NCBI RefSeq assembly: GCF_018596315.1
Contig: NZ_JAHEAG010000018.1
Span: forward strand, 62,001 to 126,000
Direction: 5' to 3'
Origin: Bradyrhizobium sp. SRL28
Lineage (GTDB): Bacteria; Pseudomonadota; Alphaproteobacteria; Rhizobiales; Xanthobacteraceae
Length of the DNA stretch: 64,000 nucleotides
Below the pieces are notes generated by a model. It saw only the letters and a program-made list of their open reading frames with translations. It did not search any database and was not told the origin of the DNA. Below, in pieces: positions 44,535 to 56,407 of this stretch. The stretch's first letter is position 1, and every line of letters starts with the position of its first letter. The translations under genes were made by a program, and so were the position numbers.

Positions 44535-47500
44535 TTACTCGGCGCTGCCGAAGCGCCGCGACCACCAGCCCGCCTTGCGGGGGGCGGCTTCGCCGGTCGG
44601 AGCCGGCTCCGGCTCGGTCGGAGCAGGCGCGGGAGACTCGACCGGCTCCGGCGCGCTGTGGCTGACGGAAGGCGCCGGTTCGGCCGGAGCGCTGGTCATG
44701 AAGCTGACTTTCTCGCGTACGGTCGACCGCCGCCGCGCGGCCTCCTGCCTGGTTTCTTCAGCTGATGGCGCGGGTGCGCTCTCGACCGGCTCAGGCTGGG
44801 CATAGGCCGCCGGCTGCATCTCCGCCGGCTGCGAGACTGGTTCGGGCGGAATGTCGGCCTGCACCAGCGATGGCGCGGGCTCGGACGCGCCGCCGTCGAA
44901 ATCGGCAACCGCGCTGGTCACTTCGGGAGCCGGCGTCGGCCCGAGTTCGTCGGCGATCGATCCGGCAAGGCCGTCTTCCAGCTCGGTACCACGCCGGCGG
45001 CGTCCGCCGCGACGGCCGCGACGGCGCGGGCGCCGCTCACCACCGGCAGCCTGATCGCCACGGGCCATGCCGGGCTGTTCGTCGCCTTCGTCCTCGTCAG
45101 CGTCGCCGTCCTCGCTGGTCGCGCCTTCGACGGCCTCGCCCGCGACGCGCATCACGTCACCGTCCTCGCGCGGGGCGGCGCCGTCACGCGGCTCGCCACG
45201 GCCGCGTCGACGTCGGCGCCGCTTGCGGCGGTGCCCGTCTCCTTCGCCTTCGCCCGCCGCCGCTTCGGCGGCATCGTCGGTCAGTCCCTCGGTCTCCTCG
45301 GTTTCGACCTCGGATTCGGTTTCGAGGTCGAACGCCTCGTCGTCGTCATAGGCTTCCTCGATCTGCGGCGGGAAGGCGGCAGCCTGCGCCGCCAGCAACG
45401 CCTTGGCGGCTTCCAGCGTGTGCACCTGTTCGCCACGATCGATGATGAACGACTGCTGACCGGCGACGGTTGAATCGGCGCTGACGGCGAGCGACACCTT
45501 GAAGGCGTTTTCGAGATCGCGCAGATGGCCGCGCTTGTGGTTGAGCACATAGAGCGCGACGTCGGTGCGGGTGCGCACCACGAGATTGTGGGTCGCGCCC
45601 TTCATCAGTATTTCCTCGATGCCGCGCAGCAATTGCAGCGCCACCGACGAGACCGAACGGACGTGACCGCTGCCGCCGCATTGCGCGCAGGGCTCGGTCG
45701 AACTCTCCAGCACGCTGGCGCGGATGCGCTGGCGCGACATCTCCAGAAGGCCGAAATGCGAGATGCGGCCGACCTGGATACGCGCGCGATCCTGCCGCAG
45801 GCAGTCGGAGAGTTTTCGCTCGACCGCGCGGTTGTTGCGCTTCTCGTCCATGTCGATGAAGTCGATGACGATGAGGCCTGCGAGATCGCGCAGGCGCAAT
45901 TGCCGCGCGACTTCCTCGGCCGCCTCGAGATTGGTCTTGAGCGCGGTGTCCTCGATGTGATGTTCGCGGGTCGAGCGGCCGGAGTTGACGTCGATCGAGA
46001 CCAGCGCCTCGGTCTGGTTGATGACGATGTAGCCGCCGGAACGCAGCTGCACGGTCGGCGAGAACATCGCATCCAGTTGGCTCTCGACGCCCATCCGCGA
46101 AAACAGCGGCTGGCCGTCGCGATACTGCCGCACCGCCCGCACGTTCGAGGGCATCAGCATCTTCATGAAGTCGCGCGCTTCCTGGTAGCCGGCTTCGCCG
46201 GCGACCTGGATTTCGTCGATTTCCTTGTTGTAGAGATCGCGCAGCGACCGCTTGATCAGCGAGCCTTCCTCGTAGACGAGGGTAGGGGCCTGCGACTTCA
46301 GCGTCATGTCGCGCACGGTTTCCCACATGCGGATCAGATATTCGAAGTCGCGCTTGATCTCGGGTTTGGTCCGCGAGGCGCCGGCGGTGCGCAGGATGAT
46401 CCCCATGCCCTCGGGCACGTCGAGGTCCTGCACCACTTCCTTCAGCCGCGAGCGGTCCTGGGCCGAGGTGATCTTGCGGCTGATGCCGCCGCCGCGGGCG
46501 GTATTGGGCATCAGCACCGCATAGCGTCCGGCCAGTGACAGATAGGTCGTCAGCGCCGCGCCCTTGTTGCCGCGCTCTTCCTTGACGACCTGAACCAGCA
46601 TCACCTGGCGGCGCTTGATGACTTCCTGAATCTTGTACTGGCGGCGTGGGCGGAACGGGCGTTCCGGAACTTCCTCCAGCACGTCGTCGCCACCGACGGA
46701 TTCGACGATTTCCTCTTCGGCATCCTCGCCGTCGTCTTCATCATCATGGCCGTCGTCGCGTTCGGAAGTTGGGGCGAGTTCGTCGGTAGAAGCAACGGCA
46801 TACCCTTCACCGGCGTGCTCGATATGCGGCGCGTCGTCGGCATGGGCCGCGTTTTCGCGCGCCTGTTCCTCGTCATGATGTTCATCATGAGCGTGTTCAG
46901 TATGAGCATGTTCAGTCGTTGCCTCGGGGGCGGCCGCCTCGACCGGCGCCACGGCGGGCGTGCCGGATTCCAATTCCGCAACCGGTGCTTCGCCTGCGGC
47001 ATCTGTCCGTTGGTCAGGACCTGGGGCATCGTGATCGTGGGGACGATCGTGATCGTGGGGACGATCGGGGTCGTGGTGATCGTGAGAATGATCGTGACCA
47101 TGCGCCTCGTGACCATGCGCATCATGGTCGTGATGGGCGGTATCCTCATGATGCCCGGCATCACTCTCATGGTGCTCAGCGTCGTGCGGATGCACTTCGC
47201 CGGCATACGCGCCTTCGTGCTGGTGCGCCTCGCCTTCATAGGGCTGGGTCGCCTGCGCCGGATCCTGGGCGGCGTTCTCGACGACGTCGCTCTGGACACG
47301 GTCGCCATGGCCGCGGCGGCGCGCATTGCGGTGGCGCGAGCGGCCACGGTGGCGGTTAGAGGAGCGGTTCTCGCTCTCTTCCTCGGCCTCGCGATGGGCG
47401 CGCTCGTCGGCCTCGATCAGCGCCTGACGGTCGGCGACCGGGATCTGATAGTAATCCGGGTGGATTTCGCTGAACGCCAGGAAGCCGTGGCGGTTGCCGC

Positions 47501-47684
47501 CATACTCGATGAACGCCGCCTGCAGCGACGGCTCTACGCGCGTGACCTTGGCTAGATAGATATTGCCGCGCAGTTGCTTGCGTTGGGCGGTCTCGAAATC
47601 AAATTCTTCGACGCGGTTGCCACGGACCACAACGACCCGGGTCTCTTCCGGGTGGGTGGCGTCGATCAACATCTTGTTGGGCAT
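44535..47684 (-). CDS. rne: Ribonuclease E/G with a histidine-rich insert
   Basis: The protein is about 1049 residues. The start MPNKMLIDATHPEETRVVV is typical of alphaproteobacterial RNase E. The S1 domain is split by an insert of about 260 residues, which contains a basic patch and a His/Asp-rich segment (about residues 154-271, repeated DHDHxH-type strings). The catalytic DNase I-like part includes GGYIVINQTEALVSIDVNSG and VIDFIDMDEKRN with the magnesium-site acids, and the Zn-link is EPCAQCGGSGH. The C-terminal 330 residues are disordered, Arg- and Glu-rich, as in degradosome scaffolds. It processes and decays RNA and is essential. The Met at 47684 is preferred over an open frame 34 codons longer. 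Confidence 0.96.
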   Translation of the reverse strand: MPNKMLIDATHPEETRVVVVRGNRVEEFDFETAQRKQLRGNIYLAKVTRVEPSLQAAFIEYGGNRHGFLAFSEIHPDYYQIPVADRQALIEADERAHREAEEESENRSSNRHRGRSRHRNARRRGHGDRVQSDVVENAAQDPAQATQPYEGEAHQHEGAYAGEVHPHDAEHHESDAGHHEDTAHHDHDAHGHEAHGHDHSHDHHDPDRPHDHDRPHDHDAPGPDQRTDAAGEAPVAELESGTPAVAPVEAAAPEATTEHAHTEHAHDEHHDEEQARENAAHADDAPHIEHAGEGYAVASTDELAPTSERDDGHDDEDDGEDAEEEIVESVGGDDVLEEVPERPFRPRRQYKIQEVIKRRQVMLVQVVKEERGNKGAALTTYLSLAGRYAVLMPNTARGGGISRKITSAQDRSRLKEVVQDLDVPEGMGIILRTAGASRTKPEIKRDFEYLIRMWETVRDMTLKSQAPTLVYEEGSLIKRSLRDLYNKEIDEIQVAGEAGYQEARDFMKMLMPSNVRAVRQYRDGQPLFSRMGVESQLDAMFSPTVQLRSGGYIVINQTEALVSIDVNSGRSTREHHIEDTALKTNLEAAEEVARQLRLRDLAGLIVIDFIDMDEKRNNRAVERKLSDCLRQDRARIQVGRISHFGLLEMSRQRIRASVLESSTEPCAQCGGSGHVRSVSSVALQLLRGIEEILMKGATHNLVVRTRTDVALYVLNHKRGHLRDLENAFKVSLAVSADSTVAGQQSFIIDRGEQVHTLEAAKALLAAQAAAFPPQIEEAYDDDEAFDLETESEVETEETEGLTDDAAEAAAGEGEGDGHRRKRRRRRRGRGEPRDGAAPREDGDVMRVAGEAVEGATSEDGDADEDEGDEQPGMARGDQAAGGERRPRRRGRRGGRRRRGTELEDGLAGSIADELGPTPAPEVTSAVADFDGGASEPAPSLVQADIPPEPVSQPAEMQPAAYAQPEPVESAPAPSAEETRQEAARRRSTVREKVSFMTSAPAEPAPSVSHSAPEPVESPAPAPTEPEPAPTGEAAPRKAGWWSRRFGSAE

Positions 47685-48406
47685 TTTGGAACTCTTGACG
47701 GCGGCGGGCGCGGTGCATGGCGCGCGCAAATTGCGCGGCCCGGTGACGCGACGGTCCACCTGATTCGGGGGTGAGGGGAAGGCCAAAACGCACTTCTTGG
47801 CGCCGCGCCGAACGGGGAGCCACCTGAGCGAGGCGACGTGCGAAGCTTTCGCTTCGCGTCGACGCGATCGTTCCGTGGATCCTGGTCGGCAACACAGTCT
47901 GGCGCATCAAGCGTCGGCCCGTCTAAACATGTTGGCGGAAAGGATACCGCCGTATCTATCGCTGAAGGCCCGGTTCGGCGCCTAAACGCCCGCCGGCCAT
48001 CGCATATCGGACCGTTTTGGGTCCGGATAATCAGTTTTGCCGTGTCTCAAACCGTCCCTGGAAAAGGTACCTGGGACCGGACGCCGCTCGGGCTCGAAAC
48101 CGCCACTCCGTGTCAGCCGCGCGCAGCGCTGGCTGTGGAGGGATCGGGAAAGACGCAGGTTCCTCCGACTTGGAAGGCTCCAGCGCTGCACCGGGAGGCT
48201 GAACGCGACACAACCGGGAGTATTAGCCGTCAGCCCCTCGTACATACGTGGATTGGGGGCTGCGTGCAAGGGAAGCGCAAGGGAACCCGCTACCGAGCGT
48301 CGCACCGCGGCAACACTTGCTCCTTTTCACAGATTAGCCCTTAAGGTCCGATTAACCCTGTGGTCCTATTGCGGTAAGGGAGGGCCCCTCCGGAGGCACC
48401 GAATCG
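47685..48406. other. Divergent region between rne and the amidase gene
   Basis: About 720 bp with no convincing gene. It should hold the rne promoter and its long leader, through which RNase E often controls its own messenger in other bacteria, plus the amidase promoter. A hairpin with arms CGGACC and GGTCCG (48008-48025) is the clearest local structure. Short plus-strand frames are rich in Arg/Pro and look spurious. Confidence 0.5.
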
Positions 48407-49768
48407 TTGGCGAGCCGTGCAAATCACCTTGTTTTGCTGGGATGTGGCCGATTGTGCGCCGCAGCATTGCTGTGCGCCCAGATGGTCGGCCCCAGCGCGG
48501 CCCAGGCGCCGGCTTATCAAGCACCACCCGTCTATCAAACACCGCTTTATCAGGGACCGGCCGCCATTCCGAGCCCGGGGGCGGCATCGAATCTCCCGAT
48601 CGCGTCTGACGCTCGCCTGGCCGGCGATGCCAAACAGACCCGTTTCATCCTCGATCTCGACAAGGCGATCCAGTTTCGGGCCTTTGCCCTGGCGGACCCC
48701 TATCGCGTGATCGTCGATCTTCCCCAAGTCAGTTTTCAGCTTCCGGCCGGAGTCGGTGTTGCGGGACGGGGATTGGTCAAGGCGTTCCGCTACGGTCTCG
48801 TCATGCCGGGCGGATCGCGGATCGTGTTCGATCTGAACGGACCGGCCAAGATCGCCAAATCCTATGTGCTGGAGGCGGCCAACGGCCAGCCGCCGCGGCT
48901 GGTGCTCGAATTCGAAGAGGTGGACCGCACCGCCTTTGTCCAGTCGCTGCCCCCCGAAAACCGCCCCGAACTGCGGCCGGCGATCGCTGAGGCCAACGCC
49001 GCCGTTGCCAAACCAGATGCGACAGCCGCGCCGAAGCCTGCACCCGGGCCGCCGGACCCGAGGCCGGTCGTCGTGATCGATCCCGGCCATGGCGGCGCCG
49101 ATAACGGCACCGAGGCCGGCGGCAACGACATCATGGAAAAGAACCTGGTGCTCAGTTTCGGGCTGGCGCTGCGCGACCGGCTCGAGAAGTCGGGTAAGTA
49201 TCGCATCGTCATGACCCGGACGGACGACACCTTCGTTGCGCTCGGCGACCGCGTGAAGGTCGCGCGCAATGAGTCGGCCGCGTTGTTCATCTCGATCCAC
49301 GCCGACGCCTTGCGGCGCGGCGAGGGCGACGCCCAGGGCGCTACCATCTACACGCTGTCGGACAAGGCCACCGATAGTGAGGCCGAACGGCTGGCGGACG
49401 CGGAAAACAAGTCGGACGCGATCGGCGGGGTCAGTCTCGCCGACGAACCGACCGAAGTCGCCGACATCCTGATCGATCTGGTGCAGCGGGAGACCAAGAC
49501 CTTCTCGAACCGGTTCGCGCGGGTGCTGATGGGCGAAATGAAGACCACGGTGCGGATGCACAAGCACCCGTTGAAATCGGCCGGTTTCCGGGTGCTGAAG
49601 GCCCCCGACGTGCCCTCGGTCCTGGTCGAACTCGGCTATGTCTCCAACAAGGCCGACCTCGAACATCTGGTGTCGGAGAACTGGCGGAACCGGACGGTCG
49701 GGGCGATGGCGCAGGCAATTGATGCGTTTTTAGCCAAACGGCAGGCAACTGTCGGGCCGGGCAAGTGA
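48407..49768 (+). CDS. N-acetylmuramoyl-L-alanine amidase with AMIN domain
   Basis: The 453-residue protein has an N-terminal signal sequence (LLGCGRLCAAALLCAQMVG, cut near SAAQ) and a short Pro/Gln linker. The AMIN targeting domain (about 75-190) includes FILDLDKAIQFRAFAL. The Amidase_3 catalytic domain has zinc ligands in VVVIDPGHGGADNGT, glutamate in GGNDIMEKN, FISIHADA and VLVELGYVSN. It cleaves septal peptidoglycan for daughter-cell separation (AmiC-like). Start is a TTG at 48407 with GGAGG 10 bp upstream. Gene order amidase, PBP1A, prfB matches what I recall for alphaproteobacteria. Confidence 0.94.
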   Translation: MASRANHLVLLGCGRLCAAALLCAQMVGPSAAQAPAYQAPPVYQTPLYQGPAAIPSPGAASNLPIASDARLAGDAKQTRFILDLDKAIQFRAFALADPYRVIVDLPQVSFQLPAGVGVAGRGLVKAFRYGLVMPGGSRIVFDLNGPAKIAKSYVLEAANGQPPRLVLEFEEVDRTAFVQSLPPENRPELRPAIAEANAAVAKPDATAAPKPAPGPPDPRPVVVIDPGHGGADNGTEAGGNDIMEKNLVLSFGLALRDRLEKSGKYRIVMTRTDDTFVALGDRVKVARNESAALFISIHADALRRGEGDAQGATIYTLSDKATDSEAERLADAENKSDAIGGVSLADEPTEVADILIDLVQRETKTFSNRFARVLMGEMKTTVRMHKHPLKSAGFRVLKAPDVPSVLVELGYVSNKADLEHLVSENWRNRTVGAMAQAIDAFLAKRQATVGPGK

Positions 49769-50007
49769 AAAGTCCGGTGCCGGTGGCGTAAGAGCAGGGT
49801 GAAAAGCGTGCCCTCCAGTGGACCAAGCCCTAGTTTGGCCACAGCGGCAGCGGTATAGAAAATCGACTGCTGGTCTTCGGAATCGGTCAATTTGTCCGCC
49901 GGACCTTTTATTGTTCGACCGCGTGGCGGCAACTCGTTCGGCAGGATTGCCGTGGTAGGCTAGACGCCGCAGATTTGGCGCACAGGGTTGGAACGGAAAC
50001 TTCGATA

Positions 50008-52533
50008 ATGCGCTTGCTGGTCCGGTTTTTGGGTTTCCTGTTCGCGGCCGGGACCGTCGTGTTCCTGGTCGGCGTGGCCGGCGTCGCGGGCGCGATCTGG
50101 CATTTCTCCAAGGACTTGCCCGACTACTCACAGCTCCAGGATTACGAGCCGCCAGTGATGACGCGCGTGCATGCGTCTGACGGCGCGCTGCTCGGCGAGT
50201 ATTCCAAGGAGCGCCGCCTCTATCTGCCGATCCAGGCGGTGCCGAAGCTCGTCATCAACGCCTTCCTCGCGGCCGAGGACAAGAACTTCTACGAGCACGG
50301 CGGCATCGACTTCACCGGCATGGCGCGCGCGGCCGTGGTGTATGCGCAGAACTTTGGCTCCAACCGCCGGCCGCAGGGCGCTTCCACGATCACCCAGCAG
50401 GTCGCGAAGAACTTCCTTTTGACCAACGAGGTTTCCTTCACCCGCAAGATCAAGGAAGCCTTGCTGGCGATGCGCATCGAGCGCGCCTATTCGAAGGACC
50501 GCATCCTCGAACTCTATCTCAACGAAATCTATCTCGGCCTCGGCGCCTACGGCATCGCTGCGGCATCGCTGGTCTATTTCGACAAGTCGGTGAACGAACT
50601 CACGATTGCGGAAGCCTCCTATCTGGCGGCGTTGCCCAAGGCGCCTGCGGCGCTCCACCCGGTTCGTAACCGCGACCGCGCGGTCGAGCGGCGCAATTAC
50701 GTCGTGGATCGCCTGGTGGAAAACGGCTGGGTCAAGCAGGCCGACGCCGAGAAGGCCCGCAAGGAACAGCTCAACGTCACCAGCCGCGGCAACGGCGCGC
50801 ATATCTTCGCCGGCGAATATTTTGCCGAGGAAGTCCGGCGCGACATTTTCGAGCGCTACGGCGAAAAGAAGCTCTATGAAGGCGGACTGTCGGTCCGCGC
50901 CACGCTCGACCCGAAGATGCAGGTGATGGCGCGCAAGGCCATGGTCGCCGGTCTGGTCAAATATGACGAGGCGAGCGGTTGGCGCGGCGCACCGTCGAAG
51001 CTCGACATTTCCGGCGACTGGGGCGTCAAGCTCGTCGACGTCAAGGCGCTCAGCGACATCTCGCCGTGGCGGATGGCCGTGGTACTCGAGACTAGCGACC
51101 AGTCGGCGCGGATCGGCTTCCAGCCCGGCCGCGAACTCGGCGGCGCCGTCAGCAAGGTCAGGCAGACCGGCATCATCACGCTCGACGGCGTGCGTTGGGC
51201 CAAGGCGGCCTCGGGTCCTTCGAGGGGCAAGACACCGACCTCGGTGGCGCAAGTCGTGTCTGCCGGCGACGTGATTTATGCTGATCCGCTGTTCGACAAA
51301 GAGGGCAAGCAAGTCGAAGGTCAGTATCGGCTGCGCCAGTTGCCGGAAGTTTCCGGCGCGATGGTTGCCATGGATCCGTGGACCGGCCGCGTGCTGGCGA
51401 TGGTCGGCGGCTTCTCGTTCGACCAGAGCCAGTTCAACCGCGCTACGCAGGCCTATCGGCAGCCGGGTTCGTCGTTCAAGCCGCTGGTGTATTCGGCGGC
51501 AATGGACAACGGCTACACCCCGTCGACGGTCGTTGTCGACGCGCCCATTGAAATCGATCAGGGACAGGGCGTCGGTGTCTGGCGCCCGGAAAACTATTCG
51601 TCCGGAAAATACCAGGGACCGGTCACGCTGCGCAACGCGCTGAAGAATTCGCTGAATACGGTGACGGTGCGGCTGGCGCAGGACATCGGCATGCCCTTGA
51701 TCGGCGAGTATTCCAAGCGTTTCGGCGTCTACGACGAACTGCCGAACTATCTGTCGTATGCACTCGGCGCTGGTGAGACCACGGTCATGCGGATGGTGAC
51801 GGCCTATTCGATGTTCGCCAATGGCGGCCGCCGCGTGAAGCCGACGCTGATCGATCGTATTCAGGATCGCTACGGCCACACCATCTTCAAGCATGACGCC
51901 CGCGAGTGCCGCGGTTGCGACGCGCCCGGCGGCTGGAAGAATCAGCCCGAGCCGCAGCTCGTGGACCGCCGCGAGCAGGTGCTCGATCCGATGACGGCCT
52001 ACCAGATCACTTCGATGATGGAATATGTGGTGCAGGCCGGCACCGCCACCGTCGTTAAGGAAGTCGGCAAGCCGATCGCCGGCAAGACCGGCACCACCAA
52101 CGATGAAAAGGACGCCTGGTTCATCGGCTTCTCGCCGGACCTCGTGGTCGGCATCTATGTCGGCTTCGACAAGCCGCGCAATCTTGGCCGCGGCATGACC
52201 GGCGGTCATCTGGCCGCACCGATCGCCAAGGACTTCCTGAAGCTCGCGCTCGCCGACAAGCCCGCGGTTCCCTTCAAGGTGCCCGCCGGCATCAAGCTCG
52301 TCCGCGTCGACCCCAAGAGCGGCATGCGCGCCGGTCCGGGCAGTGGCGGCCTGCTGGAAGCCTTCAAGCCGGGCACCGCACCGCCGGATAACTACTCGGT
52401 CATCGGCGTGGCCGATGCGGACGGCCGGATGCCGCAAGGGTACCAGCAGGGATATCAGCAAGGATACCAGCAAGGGTACCAGCAGCCCGACGCCGGCAAT
52501 ATCATGCGCCCGGGAACCGGCGGGCTTTACTGA
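50008..52533 (+). CDS. mrcA: Penicillin-binding protein 1A, tandem copy 1
   Basis: The 841-residue bifunctional peptidoglycan synthase has a membrane anchor at about 5-32. The GT51 glycosyltransferase carries catalytic Glu in AAEDKNFYEHGG and the STITQQVAKN motif. An OB-like insert follows, then the transpeptidase with S488-S-F-K, S548-L-N and K693-T-G-T. All active sites are intact. The C-terminus carries four tandem GYQQ units (from about 52438) before PDAGNIMRPGTGGLY. The next gene is a close paralogue, with about 10 differences in the first 220 residues. ATG 50008 begins MRLLVRFLGFLF. Confidence 0.95.
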   Translation: MRLLVRFLGFLFAAGTVVFLVGVAGVAGAIWHFSKDLPDYSQLQDYEPPVMTRVHASDGALLGEYSKERRLYLPIQAVPKLVINAFLAAEDKNFYEHGGIDFTGMARAAVVYAQNFGSNRRPQGASTITQQVAKNFLLTNEVSFTRKIKEALLAMRIERAYSKDRILELYLNEIYLGLGAYGIAAASLVYFDKSVNELTIAEASYLAALPKAPAALHPVRNRDRAVERRNYVVDRLVENGWVKQADAEKARKEQLNVTSRGNGAHIFAGEYFAEEVRRDIFERYGEKKLYEGGLSVRATLDPKMQVMARKAMVAGLVKYDEASGWRGAPSKLDISGDWGVKLVDVKALSDISPWRMAVVLETSDQSARIGFQPGRELGGAVSKVRQTGIITLDGVRWAKAASGPSRGKTPTSVAQVVSAGDVIYADPLFDKEGKQVEGQYRLRQLPEVSGAMVAMDPWTGRVLAMVGGFSFDQSQFNRATQAYRQPGSSFKPLVYSAAMDNGYTPSTVVVDAPIEIDQGQGVGVWRPENYSSGKYQGPVTLRNALKNSLNTVTVRLAQDIGMPLIGEYSKRFGVYDELPNYLSYALGAGETTVMRMVTAYSMFANGGRRVKPTLIDRIQDRYGHTIFKHDARECRGCDAPGGWKNQPEPQLVDRREQVLDPMTAYQITSMMEYVVQAGTATVVKEVGKPIAGKTGTTNDEKDAWFIGFSPDLVVGIYVGFDKPRNLGRGMTGGHLAAPIAKDFLKLALADKPAVPFKVPAGIKLVRVDPKSGMRAGPGSGGLLEAFKPGTAPPDNYSVIGVADADGRMPQGYQQGYQQGYQQGYQQPDAGNIMRPGTGGLY

Positions 52534-52696
52534 TCCGCACGGAGTGTTCACAACCCCAAGAAGTATCTTCGGACATAGCGCTATAGGAAAGACCCGACGG
52601 ATCTGAGCGATCCGTGTTGCGGGAGAGGAAATGTCCGATGGACACGAGTACAAGCGCCGGCTGTTCCGGTGCAAGGGTTGGAATGGAACTTCGGTA

Positions 52697-55195
52697 ATGC
52701 GCTTTCTGGTCCGGTTTTTGGGTTTCCTGTTTACCGCCGGAACGGTGGTGTTTCTGGTGGGTGTGGCCGGCGTCGCGGGCGCGATCTGGCATTTCTCCAG
52801 GGACTTGCCCGACTATTCGCAGCTTCAGGATTACGAGCCGCCGGTGATGACGCGCGTGCATGCGTCTGACGGTGCGCTGCTCGGCGAGTATTCCAAGGAG
52901 CGGCGCCTCTATCTGCCGATCCAGGCAATGCCAAAACTCGTCACCAACGCGTTCCTCGCGGCCGAGGACAAGAACTTCTACGAGCACGGTGGCATTGACT
53001 TCACCGGCATGGCGCGCGCGGCCGTGGCGTATGCGCAGAACTTTGGCTCCAACAAGCGTCCGCAGGGCGCCTCGACGATCACCCAGCAGGTCGCGAAGAA
53101 CTTCCTTCTGACCAACGAGGTTTCCTTCACCCGCAAGATCAAGGAAGCCCTGCTGGCGATGCGCATCGAGCGCGCCTATTCCAAGGACCGCATCCTCGAG
53201 CTCTATCTCAATGAAATCTATCTTGGTCTCGGCGCCTACGGCATCGCCGCGGCGTCGCTGGTCTATTTCGACAAATCCGTAAACGAACTCACGATTGCGG
53301 AAGCCGCGTATCTGGCAGCGCTGCCGAAAGCACCGGGAACGTTGCATCCGGTACGCAACCGCGAGCGGTCGACCGAGCGGCGCAACTACGTGATCGATCG
53401 TCTGGTGGAAAACGGCTGGGTCAAGCAGGCCGACGCGGACAAGGCCCGCAAGGAACCGTTGGCCGTGACCAGCCGGTCCAACGCCGCGCATACTTTTGCC
53501 GGCGAGTATTTTGCCGAGGAAGTCCGGCGCGACATCTTCGAGCGCTACGGCGAAAAGAAGCTGTACGAAGGCGGATTGTCGGTCCGTACCACCCTCGATC
53601 CGAAGCTGCAGGTGATGGCGCGCAAGGCTGTGGCCGCCGGCCTCGTGAATTTCGACGAGGCACAAGGCTGGCGCGGCGCCATGAGCAAGCTGGACATTTC
53701 CGGCGACTGGGGCGTGAAGCTCGCCGAGATCAAATCGCTGAGCGACATCTCGCCCTGGCGGATGGCGGTGGTGCTGGAAACATCCGACCAGTCGGCACGG
53801 ATCGGTTTTCAGCCCGGCCGCGAACTGGGCGGCGCGGTCTCAAAGGATCGGCAAACCGGTCTTATCACGCTGGATGGTGTCCGATGGGCGAAGCCGGTCG
53901 CCGCCGCGGCGCGCGGCAAACCGGCGACGGCCTCGGTCTCGCAGATCCTGTCGCCGGGTGACGTGATCTACGCCGATCCGCTGTTCGACAAGGAAGGCAG
54001 GCAGATCGAGGGCCAGTATCGGCTGCGCCAGATACCGGAAGTGTCCGGCGCGATGGTCGCGATGGACCCGTTGACCGGCCGCGTGGTGGCGATGGTCGGC
54101 GGCTTCTCGTTCGACCAGAGCCAGTTCAACCGCGCGACCCAGGCCTATCGGCAGCCCGGCTCGACGTTCAAGCCGCTGGTCTATGCGGCGGCGATCGACA
54201 ATGGCTACACGCCGGCGACGATCATGATCGACGGCCCGATCGAGATCGACCAGGGACAGGGGCAAGGCGTCTGGCGGCCGGACAATTTTTCGGTGGGCAG
54301 CTACAAGGGTCCCATCACGCTGCGCGAGGCTTTGAAGCACTCGCTCAACACCGTCACGGTGCGGCTGGCGCAGGATGTCGGCATGCCCCTGATCGGCGAA
54401 TACGCCAAACGCTTCGGTGTGTACGAGGACCTGCCGAACTATCTTTCCTATTCGCTGGGCGCCGGCGAAACCACGGTCATGCGGATGGTGACGGCCTATT
54501 CGATGTTCGCCAATGGCGGCCGGCGGGTGAAGCCGACGCTGATCGACCGCATTCAGGATCGCTACGGACGCACGATCTTCAAGCATGATCAGCGCGAGTG
54601 CCGCGGGTGCGATGCGCCGGAGGGCTGGAAGAATCAGCCCGAGCCCCAGCTCGTCGATCGCCGGGAGCAGGTGCTCGATACGTTGACCGCCTACCAGACT
54701 ACGTCGATGCTCGAAAGCGTAGTGCAGGGTGGCACCGCGGCGATCCTGCGCGAACTCGGCAAGCCGATCGCCGGCAAGACCGGCACCACCAGCGACGCGA
54801 AAGACGTCTGGTTCGTCGGCTTTTCGCCCGATCTCGTCGTCGGTCTCTATCTCGGCTACGACAAGCCGCGCACGCTGGGCAGGGCCGCGCAGGGCGGCCG
54901 CATCGCCGCCCCGATCGCCAAGGATTTCCTGAAGCTCGCGCTCGCCAACAAGCCGGCGACCCCGTTCAAGATTCCCGCCGGCATCAGGCTGGTTCGCATC
55001 GATGCCAAGAGCGGCACGCGCCCCAACCCCGGCGGCGAGGGCGGCCGCACGATCCTGGAAGCGTTCAAGCCGGGCACCGTGCCGCCGGATAATTACTCCG
55101 TCGTTGGCGTTGCCGAAGGGGACGGACGGGTGCCGCAGGAAATCCCGCCCGACGCCGGCAATATCATGCGTCCCGGAACCGGCCGGCTTTATTAG
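52697..55195 (+). CDS. Penicillin-binding protein 1A, tandem copy 2
   Basis: The 832-residue paralogue of the preceding gene has the same domain order: anchor, GT51 with AAEDKNFYEHGG, OB insert, and transpeptidase with S489-T-F-K, S549-L-N and K694-T-G-T. It lacks the GYQQ repeats, ending VPQEIPPDAGNIMRPGTGRLY, and differs mostly in the linker parts and third codon positions. The 35 bp before the start also match those before copy 1 (GGGTTGGAA-GGAAACTTCG-TAATGCGC), so the duplication included the ribosome-binding region. Both copies look functional. Divergence suggests the duplication is not recent, or that both copies are under selection. Confidence 0.95.
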   Translation: MRFLVRFLGFLFTAGTVVFLVGVAGVAGAIWHFSRDLPDYSQLQDYEPPVMTRVHASDGALLGEYSKERRLYLPIQAMPKLVTNAFLAAEDKNFYEHGGIDFTGMARAAVAYAQNFGSNKRPQGASTITQQVAKNFLLTNEVSFTRKIKEALLAMRIERAYSKDRILELYLNEIYLGLGAYGIAAASLVYFDKSVNELTIAEAAYLAALPKAPGTLHPVRNRERSTERRNYVIDRLVENGWVKQADADKARKEPLAVTSRSNAAHTFAGEYFAEEVRRDIFERYGEKKLYEGGLSVRTTLDPKLQVMARKAVAAGLVNFDEAQGWRGAMSKLDISGDWGVKLAEIKSLSDISPWRMAVVLETSDQSARIGFQPGRELGGAVSKDRQTGLITLDGVRWAKPVAAAARGKPATASVSQILSPGDVIYADPLFDKEGRQIEGQYRLRQIPEVSGAMVAMDPLTGRVVAMVGGFSFDQSQFNRATQAYRQPGSTFKPLVYAAAIDNGYTPATIMIDGPIEIDQGQGQGVWRPDNFSVGSYKGPITLREALKHSLNTVTVRLAQDVGMPLIGEYAKRFGVYEDLPNYLSYSLGAGETTVMRMVTAYSMFANGGRRVKPTLIDRIQDRYGRTIFKHDQRECRGCDAPEGWKNQPEPQLVDRREQVLDTLTAYQTTSMLESVVQGGTAAILRELGKPIAGKTGTTSDAKDVWFVGFSPDLVVGLYLGYDKPRTLGRAAQGGRIAAPIAKDFLKLALANKPATPFKIPAGIRLVRIDAKSGTRPNPGGEGGRTILEAFKPGTVPPDNYSVVGVAEGDGRVPQEIPPDAGNIMRPGTGRLY

Positions 55196-55275: not shown

Positions 55276-56407
55276 ATGCGCGCCGAAGTCGAACGCCTCG
55301 TAGAAGAGATCAAGCAGTCAGTCGGGCTGCTGAGGAGGCATCTTTGACGTCGAGAAATCCACGGCTCGCCTCGCCGAGCTGAACAAACTCGCCGAAGATC
55401 CCAATCTCTGGAACGATCCCCAGAAGGCCCAGAAGCTGATGCAGGAGCGCACCTCGCTGGTGGATGCGCTCGAGGGCATCGGCAAGGTCGAGCGTGAGCT
55501 CGACGACAATGTCGAGATGATCGCGCTTGGCGAGGCCGAGAACGATGAAGGCGTGGTGGTCGAGGCCGAGAACGCGCTGAAGGCCCTGAAGAAGGAAGTC
55601 GCTCGCCGCGAGCTGGAAGCGCTGCTGTCCGGCGAGGCCGACCGGTTCGATTCCTATCTCGAAGTGCATGCCGGCGCCGGCGGCACCGAGAGCCAGGACT
55701 GGGCCGCTATGCTGCTGCGCATGTATACGCGCTGGGCCGAGGAGCACGGTTTCAAGATCGAGTATCTCGAAGAGACTCCCGGCGAAGAAGCCGGCATCAA
55801 ATCTGCGACCATCCAGATCAGCGGGCACAATGCCTATGGCTGGCTGAAGACGGAAGCGGGCGTGCACCGCCTGGTGCGGATCTCGCCGTTCGATTCCAAC
55901 GCGCGGCGACACACGTCGTTCTCGTCGGTGGCGATTTTTCCGGTGGTCGATAACAGCATCAAGATCGATATCGCCGAGTCCGACGTGCGCACCGACACCA
56001 TGCGCTCGGGCGGCGCCGGCGGGCAGCACGTCAACAAGACCGAATCCGCGGTGCGCCTTACCCATATTCCGACCGGTGTCGCGGTGGTCTGTCAGGCCGG
56101 CCGCTCGCAGCACAAGAACCGCGCCCAAGCCTGGGACATGCTGCGCGCGCGGCTCTACGAAATCGAGTTGAAGCGGCGCGAGGAACAGGCCGCCGCCGAT
56201 CAGGCCGCCAAGACCGATATCGGCTGGGGCCACCAGATCCGCTCCTACGTGCTGCAGCCCTACCAGATGGTGAAAGACCTGCGCACCGGCGTGCAGACCT
56301 CGGATACCTCGGGCGTGCTCGACGGAGACCTCGACGAGTTTATGGCGGCGACGCTGGCGCAGCGCGCCTTTGGCACCACGCCCGGCGCGGTCGAGGACGT
56401 GGATTAA
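55276..56407 (+). CDS. prfB: Peptide chain release factor 2, expressed by programmed +1 frameshift
   Basis: The first 23 codons (from ATG 55276) run into an in-frame TGA at 55345-55347. A +1 shift at CTT-T joins them to the frame read from GAC at 55346, giving about 376 residues. RF2 marks are the SPF anticodon-like tripeptide in [13 protein letters not shown] and the GGQ hydrolysis motif in [14 protein letters not shown]. It releases peptides at UGA and UAA. Because the shift occurs only when RF2 is scarce, the gene regulates itself. It follows the PBP1A pair, 80 bp apart. Starting at 55439 would miss the first 55 or so residues. Confidence 0.96.
55333..55348 (+). promoter_or_regulatory. prfB programmed frameshift signal
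   Basis: AGGAGG (55333-55338), CAT, CTT, TGA, C: a Shine-Dalgarno-like stretch three bases before the slippery CTT-TGA-C, the same geometry as the E. coli prfB site. The spacing and the stop codon read by RF2 itself show the autoregulatory switch is conserved here. Confidence 0.95.

Follow-up and report, generated by a model that had tools for sequence, protein, structure and literature searches.

The DNA studied here is a window of 64,000 nucleotides from Bradyrhizobium sp. SRL28 (contig NZ_JAHEAG010000018.1, positions 62,001 to 126,000), whose genome assembly comprises 9.65 Mb in 262 contigs. The window carries two adjacent genes, on the same strand, for class A penicillin-binding proteins (PBPs) of the PBP1A family. 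They are flanked by an amidase gene upstream and a prfB-like gene downstream, and an RNase E gene lies further upstream on the opposite strand. The closest titled relatives by PBP1A gene, at 94-97%, are Bradyrhizobium (AUGA SZCCT0283, CSA112, B. lablabi, sGM-13, B. australiense and B. archetypum). The two genes, here copy 1 and copy 2, have transpeptidase domains of two types, alpha and beta, and the history of these types is the subject of this report. Genomes and loci used for comparison carry G and L numbers. The features of the locus, in window positions, are as follows.

48407..49768, + strand: N-acetylmuramoyl-L-alanine amidase gene (AMIN and Amidase_3; Pfam PF01520 150.6 bits, PF11741 36 bits), the upstream synteny marker
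49983..50007, + strand: conserved leader of copy 1 with its presumed ribosome-binding region, where the repeat between the copies begins (25-base comparison)
50008..52533, + strand: copy 1, PBP1A-family class A PBP of alpha type, 841 amino acids from ATG to stop (TIGR02074 616.7 bits; PF00912, PF17092, PF00905)
50125..50715, + strand: glycosyltransferase half of copy 1 (codons 40-236), read from trees and site patterns as homogenised with copy 2
51469..51480, + strand: SxxK motif of copy 1, SSFK (codons 488-491; motif reading)
52051..52323, + strand: type island of copy 1 (codons 682-772), with KTGTT at 693-697 and T731 (site patterns, trees)
52438..52485, + strand: tail linker of copy 1 with four GYQQ units (codons 811-826; tandem repeat 52427-52484), length-variable in relatives
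52534..52696, + strand: spacer of 163 bases, the final 25 of which resemble the leader of copy 1 (25-base comparison)
52697..55195, + strand: copy 2, PBP1A-family class A PBP of beta type, 832 amino acids from ATG to stop (TIGR02074 616.5 bits; PF00912, PF17092, PF00905)
54161..54172, + strand: SxxK motif of copy 2, STFK (codons 489-492; motif reading)
54743..55015, + strand: type island of copy 2 (codons 683-773), with KTGTT at 694-698 and Gln at position 731 in copy 1 numbering (site patterns, trees)
55439..56407, + strand: prfB-like peptide chain release factor gene (PF03462 168.5 bits, PF00472 143.5 bits), the downstream synteny marker

Both copies exceed the curated cut-off of the PBP1A family model TIGR02074 (508.75 bits), and neither reaches that of the MrcA equivalog NF008643 (1263 bits; the copies score 542.6 and 530.5). 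The glycosyltransferase (PF00912), OB (PF17092) and transpeptidase (PF00905) domains are in identical order, and SxxK, SLN and KTGTT are present in each copy together with the catalytic Glu motif of the glycosyltransferase, as is proper to class A PBPs. An earlier, sequence-only reading of the locus had described a tandem PBP1A duplication with both copies intact. This is borne out by full ATG-to-stop frames at 50008-52533 and 52697-55195, as are the common domain order and catalytic motifs and the four GYQQ units of copy 1 that it reported. The likeness does extend into the ribosome-binding region, since homology begins about 25 bases before each ATG and continues to the stop codon, and where about 10 changes had been claimed in the first 220 residues, exactly 10 amino-acid differences were counted. 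In a global alignment of the frames with longer upstream starts, 709 of 839 residues are identical between the copies. Because the other 130 differ, and because one-contig genomes (G019, G054, G110, G114 and G125 among them) carry the pair, a duplication produced by misassembly is unlikely. Across the whole host genome, the glycosyltransferase family is matched seven times.

The sequence-only reading had placed the difference between the copies at the C-terminus. The tail does differ, but the main divergence is elsewhere. Across 17 genomes of the window's group, 36 positions have disjoint states between copies 1 and copies 2, and 24 of these are in the transpeptidase domain, with 4 in the tail. 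The GYQQ units were rejected as a functional difference between the copies: copies 1 of the wider group have from zero to five GYxQ-like units, GYPQAQ runs are found in some copies 2, and the stretch is a linker of variable length.

Distribution of the pair

A PBP1A match is present in 145 of 146 genomes of the genus, the window's own included. A contiguous pair at the amidase-prfB locus is found in 25 of the 145 others (G001, G014, G015, G019, G022, G023, G024, G025, G031, G033, G035, G038, G039, G045, G050, G052, G054, G087, G088, G099, G102, G110, G114, G120 and G125). Up to six candidates were scored per genome, and the numbers stayed the same when the 54 genomes with at least two matches were rescored with nearly all candidates. 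Beyond the 25, G057 and G030 seem to have pairs divided between contigs, and Bradyrhizobium sp. S69 (L076) is an additional pair among the titled loci. The pair is likewise present at L014 of B. lablabi. An apparent break in the G014 pair is an assembly gap of N. Copy 2 of G031 is in two overlapping frames and looks frameshifted.

Outside the genus, a second match at E 1e-180 was found in none of 86 genomes from 46 other genera of the same family. In other families of the order 70 of 78 genomes have a match at E 1e-150, and two of them, G249 and G246, have two matches. G249 (L173) has a PBP1A tandem pair at the same rne-amidase-prfB locus. Both of its copies carry T at position 731 and so are without the beta signature described below; at 489 one has S and the other A. 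The two copies of G246 are dispersed. G137 has two PBP1A genes, 92% identical, on separate contigs (L178, L179) and each adjoining its own amidase gene; the draft is 83% complete, and the two genes perhaps represent a second strain in the assembly.

This distribution makes the pair a trait of a minority of genomes, with more than one origin. Single-copy G028 and G103 are nested in the pair-bearing core and single-copy G138 is the sister of G102, which indicates losses of the pair. The single-copy genomes G012, G085 and G090 branch early, and their placement fits a loss and an original absence equally well. The sequence-only reading had stated that most relatives have one copy, and for the contiguous pair the survey agrees. 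Its picture of a real tandem duplication holds, and tandem copies are not universal in the genus. The pair is long established in a clade and is not private to the window strain.

Mosaic of the two transpeptidase types

From 140 loci (window included; L001-L007 set aside) 169 genes were taken, of which 149 are distinct. Gene pieces of no more than 750 matched residues were excluded, namely the upstream copy of L111 (100-N assembly gap), copy 2 of L091, and L122-L125, with L125 being one gene in two frames. Careful trees were made with 71 of the 149 distinct copies, and an outgroup version adds 20 copies from other genera.

In a quick tree of all 149 distinct copies, copies 1 and copies 2 of the window's group form separate clades. 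Trees of gene parts conflict, with 149 rows and with 71. In the glycosyltransferase-domain tree the tandem copies group by lineage, whereas in the transpeptidase-domain tree they split by type, alpha versus beta. The alpha members are the copies 1 except those of G022 and G088, the downstream copies of G022, G088 and G014, and most single copies. The beta members are the copies 2 of the window's group, of G025/G045 and of G015/S69, the upstream copies of G022 and G088, the dispersed copies, and the locus copies of G003, G109 and L082. One beta clade is rejected by the glycosyltransferase data (log-likelihood 295 lower; approximately unbiased test, p-AU 5e-5; tandem copies alone p 2e-4), and the pairing of the two G025 copies is rejected by the transpeptidase data (p-AU 4e-5). 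Different parts of the genes thus give contradictory trees in opposite directions, as is required of gene conversion. Cumulated site likelihoods change direction at codon 236, where the glycosyltransferase domain ends, and reverse in the last 16 codons; the turning points weigh more than the sizes here, because each compared tree was fitted to one part. With the 20 outgroup copies the beta clade has 99/99 support, whereas support for its position within the genus is weak. It was also observed that roughly the final 16 residues are specific to the lineage and identical, or almost so, in both copies of a genome (window, L106 of G025, L110 of G015). Thus grouping by lineage resumes 3′ of the island.

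Four-taxon site patterns were counted because type-specific amino acids could converge. In comparisons between two genomes the glycosyltransferase and transpeptidase domains contrast at Fisher p < 0.05 in 9 of 12 cases (third positions, 7 of 12), most strongly for the window and G102 (p 2.8e-6). Between-lineage counts used six two-copy lineages, with the window's group represented by 16 genomes (L091 and L103 left out), and the strict set is confined to codons whose residue is identical in the four sequences. For the swapped (G022/G088) and dispersed (elkanii-type) lineages the copy labels follow type, and a recount with labels by position only omits those lineages, leaving four. At strictly synonymous third positions the counts of same-genome to same-type patterns, followed by those with position-only labels, are:

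codons 40-200: 224.8:35.2; position-only 88.2:11.0
codons 201-449: 196.4:77.4; position-only 66.8:31.8
codons 450-669: 149.9:69.1; position-only 51.9:25.4
codons 682-772: 28.9:49.6; position-only 10.9:23.1
codons 773-841: 33.6:15.0; position-only 15.8:4.6

The best same-type segment is codons 686-767, which was matched by none of 3000 shuffles of codon order, and the direction of the island is unchanged when any one of the six lineages is dropped. For G022/G088 the island counts are 6.7:5.2 when the copies are labelled by position and 6.7:18.6 when labelled by type; thus the upstream copy there carries the beta island. In a tree of codons 670-745 beta is a single clade (100/99), and codons 450-669 reject such a clade (p-AU 0.028; third positions 0.017). 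Amino-acid convergence as the sole cause of the beta group is made unlikely by the synonymous sites of the island. Read together, these results suggest that the copies have been homogenised within lineages nearly everywhere but in the island, codons 682-772.

Eight positions separate alpha from beta with less than 20% overlap. All are in the transpeptidase domain, six inside the island (703, 716, 725, 729, 731 and 735) and two outside it (489 and 509). L716 and Q731 are found together in 44 of the 149 distinct copies, which are taken as beta, and in none of the other 105; each is present in 29 of 29 copies of the beta set defined by the tree. The dispersed copies of G070 and G004 also carry both residues, and all 16 dispersed copies found in the surveyed genomes are beta. 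Dispersed beta-type copies, away from the amidase-prfB locus, were noted at L126-L130, L132-L136, L138, L140, L142, L146, L180, L181, L084 and L086. No sign of a link to symbiosis genes was seen in two of these neighbourhoods (L128 and L084), as judged by eye from translated frames with no family scan. In G003 and G109 the locus copy is alpha-like at 489 and 509 but has beta residues from 703 onward, a pattern that fits the island as the unit. These copies (L131 and L141) and L082 join a lineage-type glycosyltransferase half to a beta-type island; a deletion that fused tandem copies, or an exchange of just the island, would give such an arrangement.

The best sequence matches with a solved structure are 4OON and 3UDF, which we take to be PBP1A of Pseudomonas aeruginosa and PBP1a of Acinetobacter baumannii, respectively. 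By sequence alignment, position 731 appears to correspond to the Tyr of YGG in 3UDF, Y707 by hand count from K669. The copies described here have T (alpha) or Q (beta) at this place. Position 698 (N in copies 1 and S in copies 2 of the 17 genomes) would likewise take the place of N674 in A. baumannii PBP1a. One study of that protein uses the numbering S434 and K669, and its docking brings Y707 into steric contact with imipenem (PMC11963609). Of 17 type-specific positions, seven are at most two residues from active-site positions (p 0.003), or three of eight with a stricter threshold (p 0.09), the list of active-site positions having been drawn up after the type-specific residues were known. 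S489T was considered as a mark of resistance and is weak as such: A. baumannii PBP1a already has STIK, and SSFK is found in 4 of the 44 beta copies.

Proposed gene conversion and selection, and exchange between strains

The reading towards which we lean, with somewhat more confidence than doubt, is that the duplicate pair is old and has been homogenised through gene conversion, save where two forms of the transpeptidase are maintained by selection. Both genes would make bifunctional PBP1A synthases, combining a lipid II polymerase with a DD-transpeptidase, like the enzymes behind the polar cell wall of Agrobacterium and Sinorhizobium. The pair would derive from an old duplication in Bradyrhizobium, and repeated gene conversion between the neighbours would overwrite the glycosyltransferase half and much of the rest, such that these parts track lineage and not copy. 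An island of about 270 bases would escape overwriting; it takes in the KTG motif, the strands that follow and the rim loop as far as about residue 735. All lineages would have this island from a single source, irrespective of whether their second copy lies downstream, upstream or at another genomic site. Selection for two transpeptidase sites per cell that differ at the rim, on one common polymerase module, may be the simplest cause. Copy 1 (alpha) would then be the conserved housekeeping form, and copy 2 (beta) an alternative form for some condition or inhibitor, with beta-lactam tolerance, stress and symbiosis as candidate contexts.

Several results weigh against this reading. The losses of the pair that seem to have occurred in G028, G103 and G138, along with the apparent frameshift in copy 2 of G031, indicate that two copies are not required. 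The glycosyltransferase data do not reject one clade of the 12 copies 2 from the window's wider group (p-AU 0.098). The dispersed elkanii-type copies join japonicum-type rows in the glycosyltransferase tree and not their own locus copy, and thus homogenisation is not demonstrated for them. The window compared with G019 (p 0.35) and with G110 (p 0.32) shows no contrast between domains, which speaks against recent conversion within the window's own group; conversion there would predate the radiation of the group. The island counts fall to 21.9:25.4 without the G025/G045 lineage. Third positions neither show nor reject one beta clade, whether those of codons 670-745 alone (p-AU 0.62) or of the whole transpeptidase domain (p-AU 0.363). 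It should be noted that the site-pattern counts share branches of one tree and hence are non-independent, and that the shuffles permute codons and not history.

The main rival is travel of the island between strains, since exchange of this kind is seen in G087. By their flanking amidase and prfB genes, G087 and G110 belong to the same five-member clade (100/100), and copy 1 of G087 goes with G110 throughout, at 96-99% identity over codons 450-745. Copy 2 of G087 (L096) is a between-strain mosaic with a glycosyltransferase part like that of G110 (91-98% identity over codons 40-236) and a transpeptidase part like that of the window's relatives (85-89% identity to G110 over codons 450-745). The grouping of copies by lineage is compatible with copying within a genome and with a source in another strain. 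There may have been several separate old tandem duplications, after which the beta segment spread horizontally among Bradyrhizobium and replaced part of one copy, giving a mosaic PBP. Tandem pairs in separate lineages with single-copy relatives between them, and the same-locus pair of G249 in another family, are in keeping with this; the dispersed beta copies could act as donors, and the locus copies of G003 and G109 look as if the island alone had been exchanged. However, same-type patterns dominate the transpeptidase domain in four two-genome lineages (G025 and G045 48:10, G035 and G102 64:5, G015 and S69 53:12, G022 and G088 80:7), and the copies must be older than the species there, which excludes recent duplications and is compatible with old ones. 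On this evidence we regard spread of the segment between strains as possible but rather doubtful.

A further alternative is relaxed redundancy. Copy 2 would in that case be a slowly decaying spare, the glycosyltransferase halves would be alike through slow evolution and frequent conversion, and the island would be a chance remnant of old divergence. Over the 17 genomes, omega in the transpeptidase domain comes to 0.035 in copies 1 against 0.089 in copies 2, a ratio of about 2.5 that would suit a spare, as would some pair losses and the one apparent frameshift; in the glycosyltransferase domain the values are 0.034 and 0.054. All are far under 1, and purifying selection acts on both copies, though more weakly on copy 2. 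In the glycosyltransferase, EDKNFYEH and GASTITQQ are kept in all 149 distinct copies, as are SxxK, SxN and KTG in all 44 beta copies, with SLN changed to SVN, SIN or SRN in 13. The invariance of L716 and Q731 in the tree-defined beta set likewise does not favour decay. In G003 and G109 only beta-island copies are present among matches at E 1e-60, and so the beta form seems able to serve alone. Decay of a redundant copy is therefore judged quite unlikely.

As to the role of the genes in the cell, Agrobacterium tumefaciens and Sinorhizobium meliloti are each described as having one PBP1a that is essential for polar growth and could not be deleted (PMC8546619). The copies in the window resemble these proteins in domain order, motifs and TIGR02074 score, and a PBP2 over the curated cut-off is absent here as there (best match in the window's own genome 113.9 bits against 455). 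They differ in number, one PBP1a being described for those species, and here there are two copies with two transpeptidase types. The essential polar-growth PBP1a of Rhizobiales goes with lack of the Rod complex (PBP2, RodA and MreBCD), of which PBP2 and MreB were looked for in the window's genome. The MreB model has one match over its cut-off of 27 (60.1 bits), a 657-amino-acid frame of Hsp70-like length, and the model also matches two archaeal controls. A more specific proposal, which is tentative and unlikely to hold in full, is that beta is a long-kept second site of the essential polar synthase, less sensitive to beta-lactams of soil organisms or suited to another stem peptide. Polar growth could then continue when alpha is blocked, with conversion keeping a common polymerase module and selection keeping a rim segment of 90 codons apart.

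Long-lasting concerted evolution of prokaryote paralogues has been described for 26 genes and called rare in PMC6053082, the main text of which nowhere contains the word penicillin. The pair is like those paralogues in that paralogues within a lineage are closer than orthologues between lineages, and unlike them in that homogenisation here covers part of the gene and one functional island escapes. Literature searches, judged by titles and the openings of abstracts, found no report of a PBP1A pair in Bradyrhizobium. Mosaic PBPs of penicillin-resistant Streptococcus pneumoniae and Neisseria have foreign or other-copy transpeptidase segments in an otherwise native PBP. In contrast, two forms coexist per genome here, and selection by a drug is not known. 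The pair would be a clear bacterial case of homogenisation that stops at a functional island. Two forms that differ in a defined transpeptidase segment amount to a natural experiment on what selection acts on there, and the short list of eight residues together with the 270-base segment can be taken to the bench.

Other features of the locus

Between 48300 and 55500 no promoter or terminator was found above chance (promoter-like sites 0, expected 1.2; terminator-like 6, expected 5.9). Two open frames lie antisense to the PBP genes on the minus strand, at 50128-52674 (848 amino acids) and 52502-53665 (387 amino acids), and are probably a by-product of GC-rich codon use. The RNase E gene (minus strand, 44535-47786) has, ahead of its RNase_E_G domain (residues 417-687), a long acidic, His-rich stretch with short HDHD-type repeats (window 46600-47350; tandem repeat at 47028-47076).

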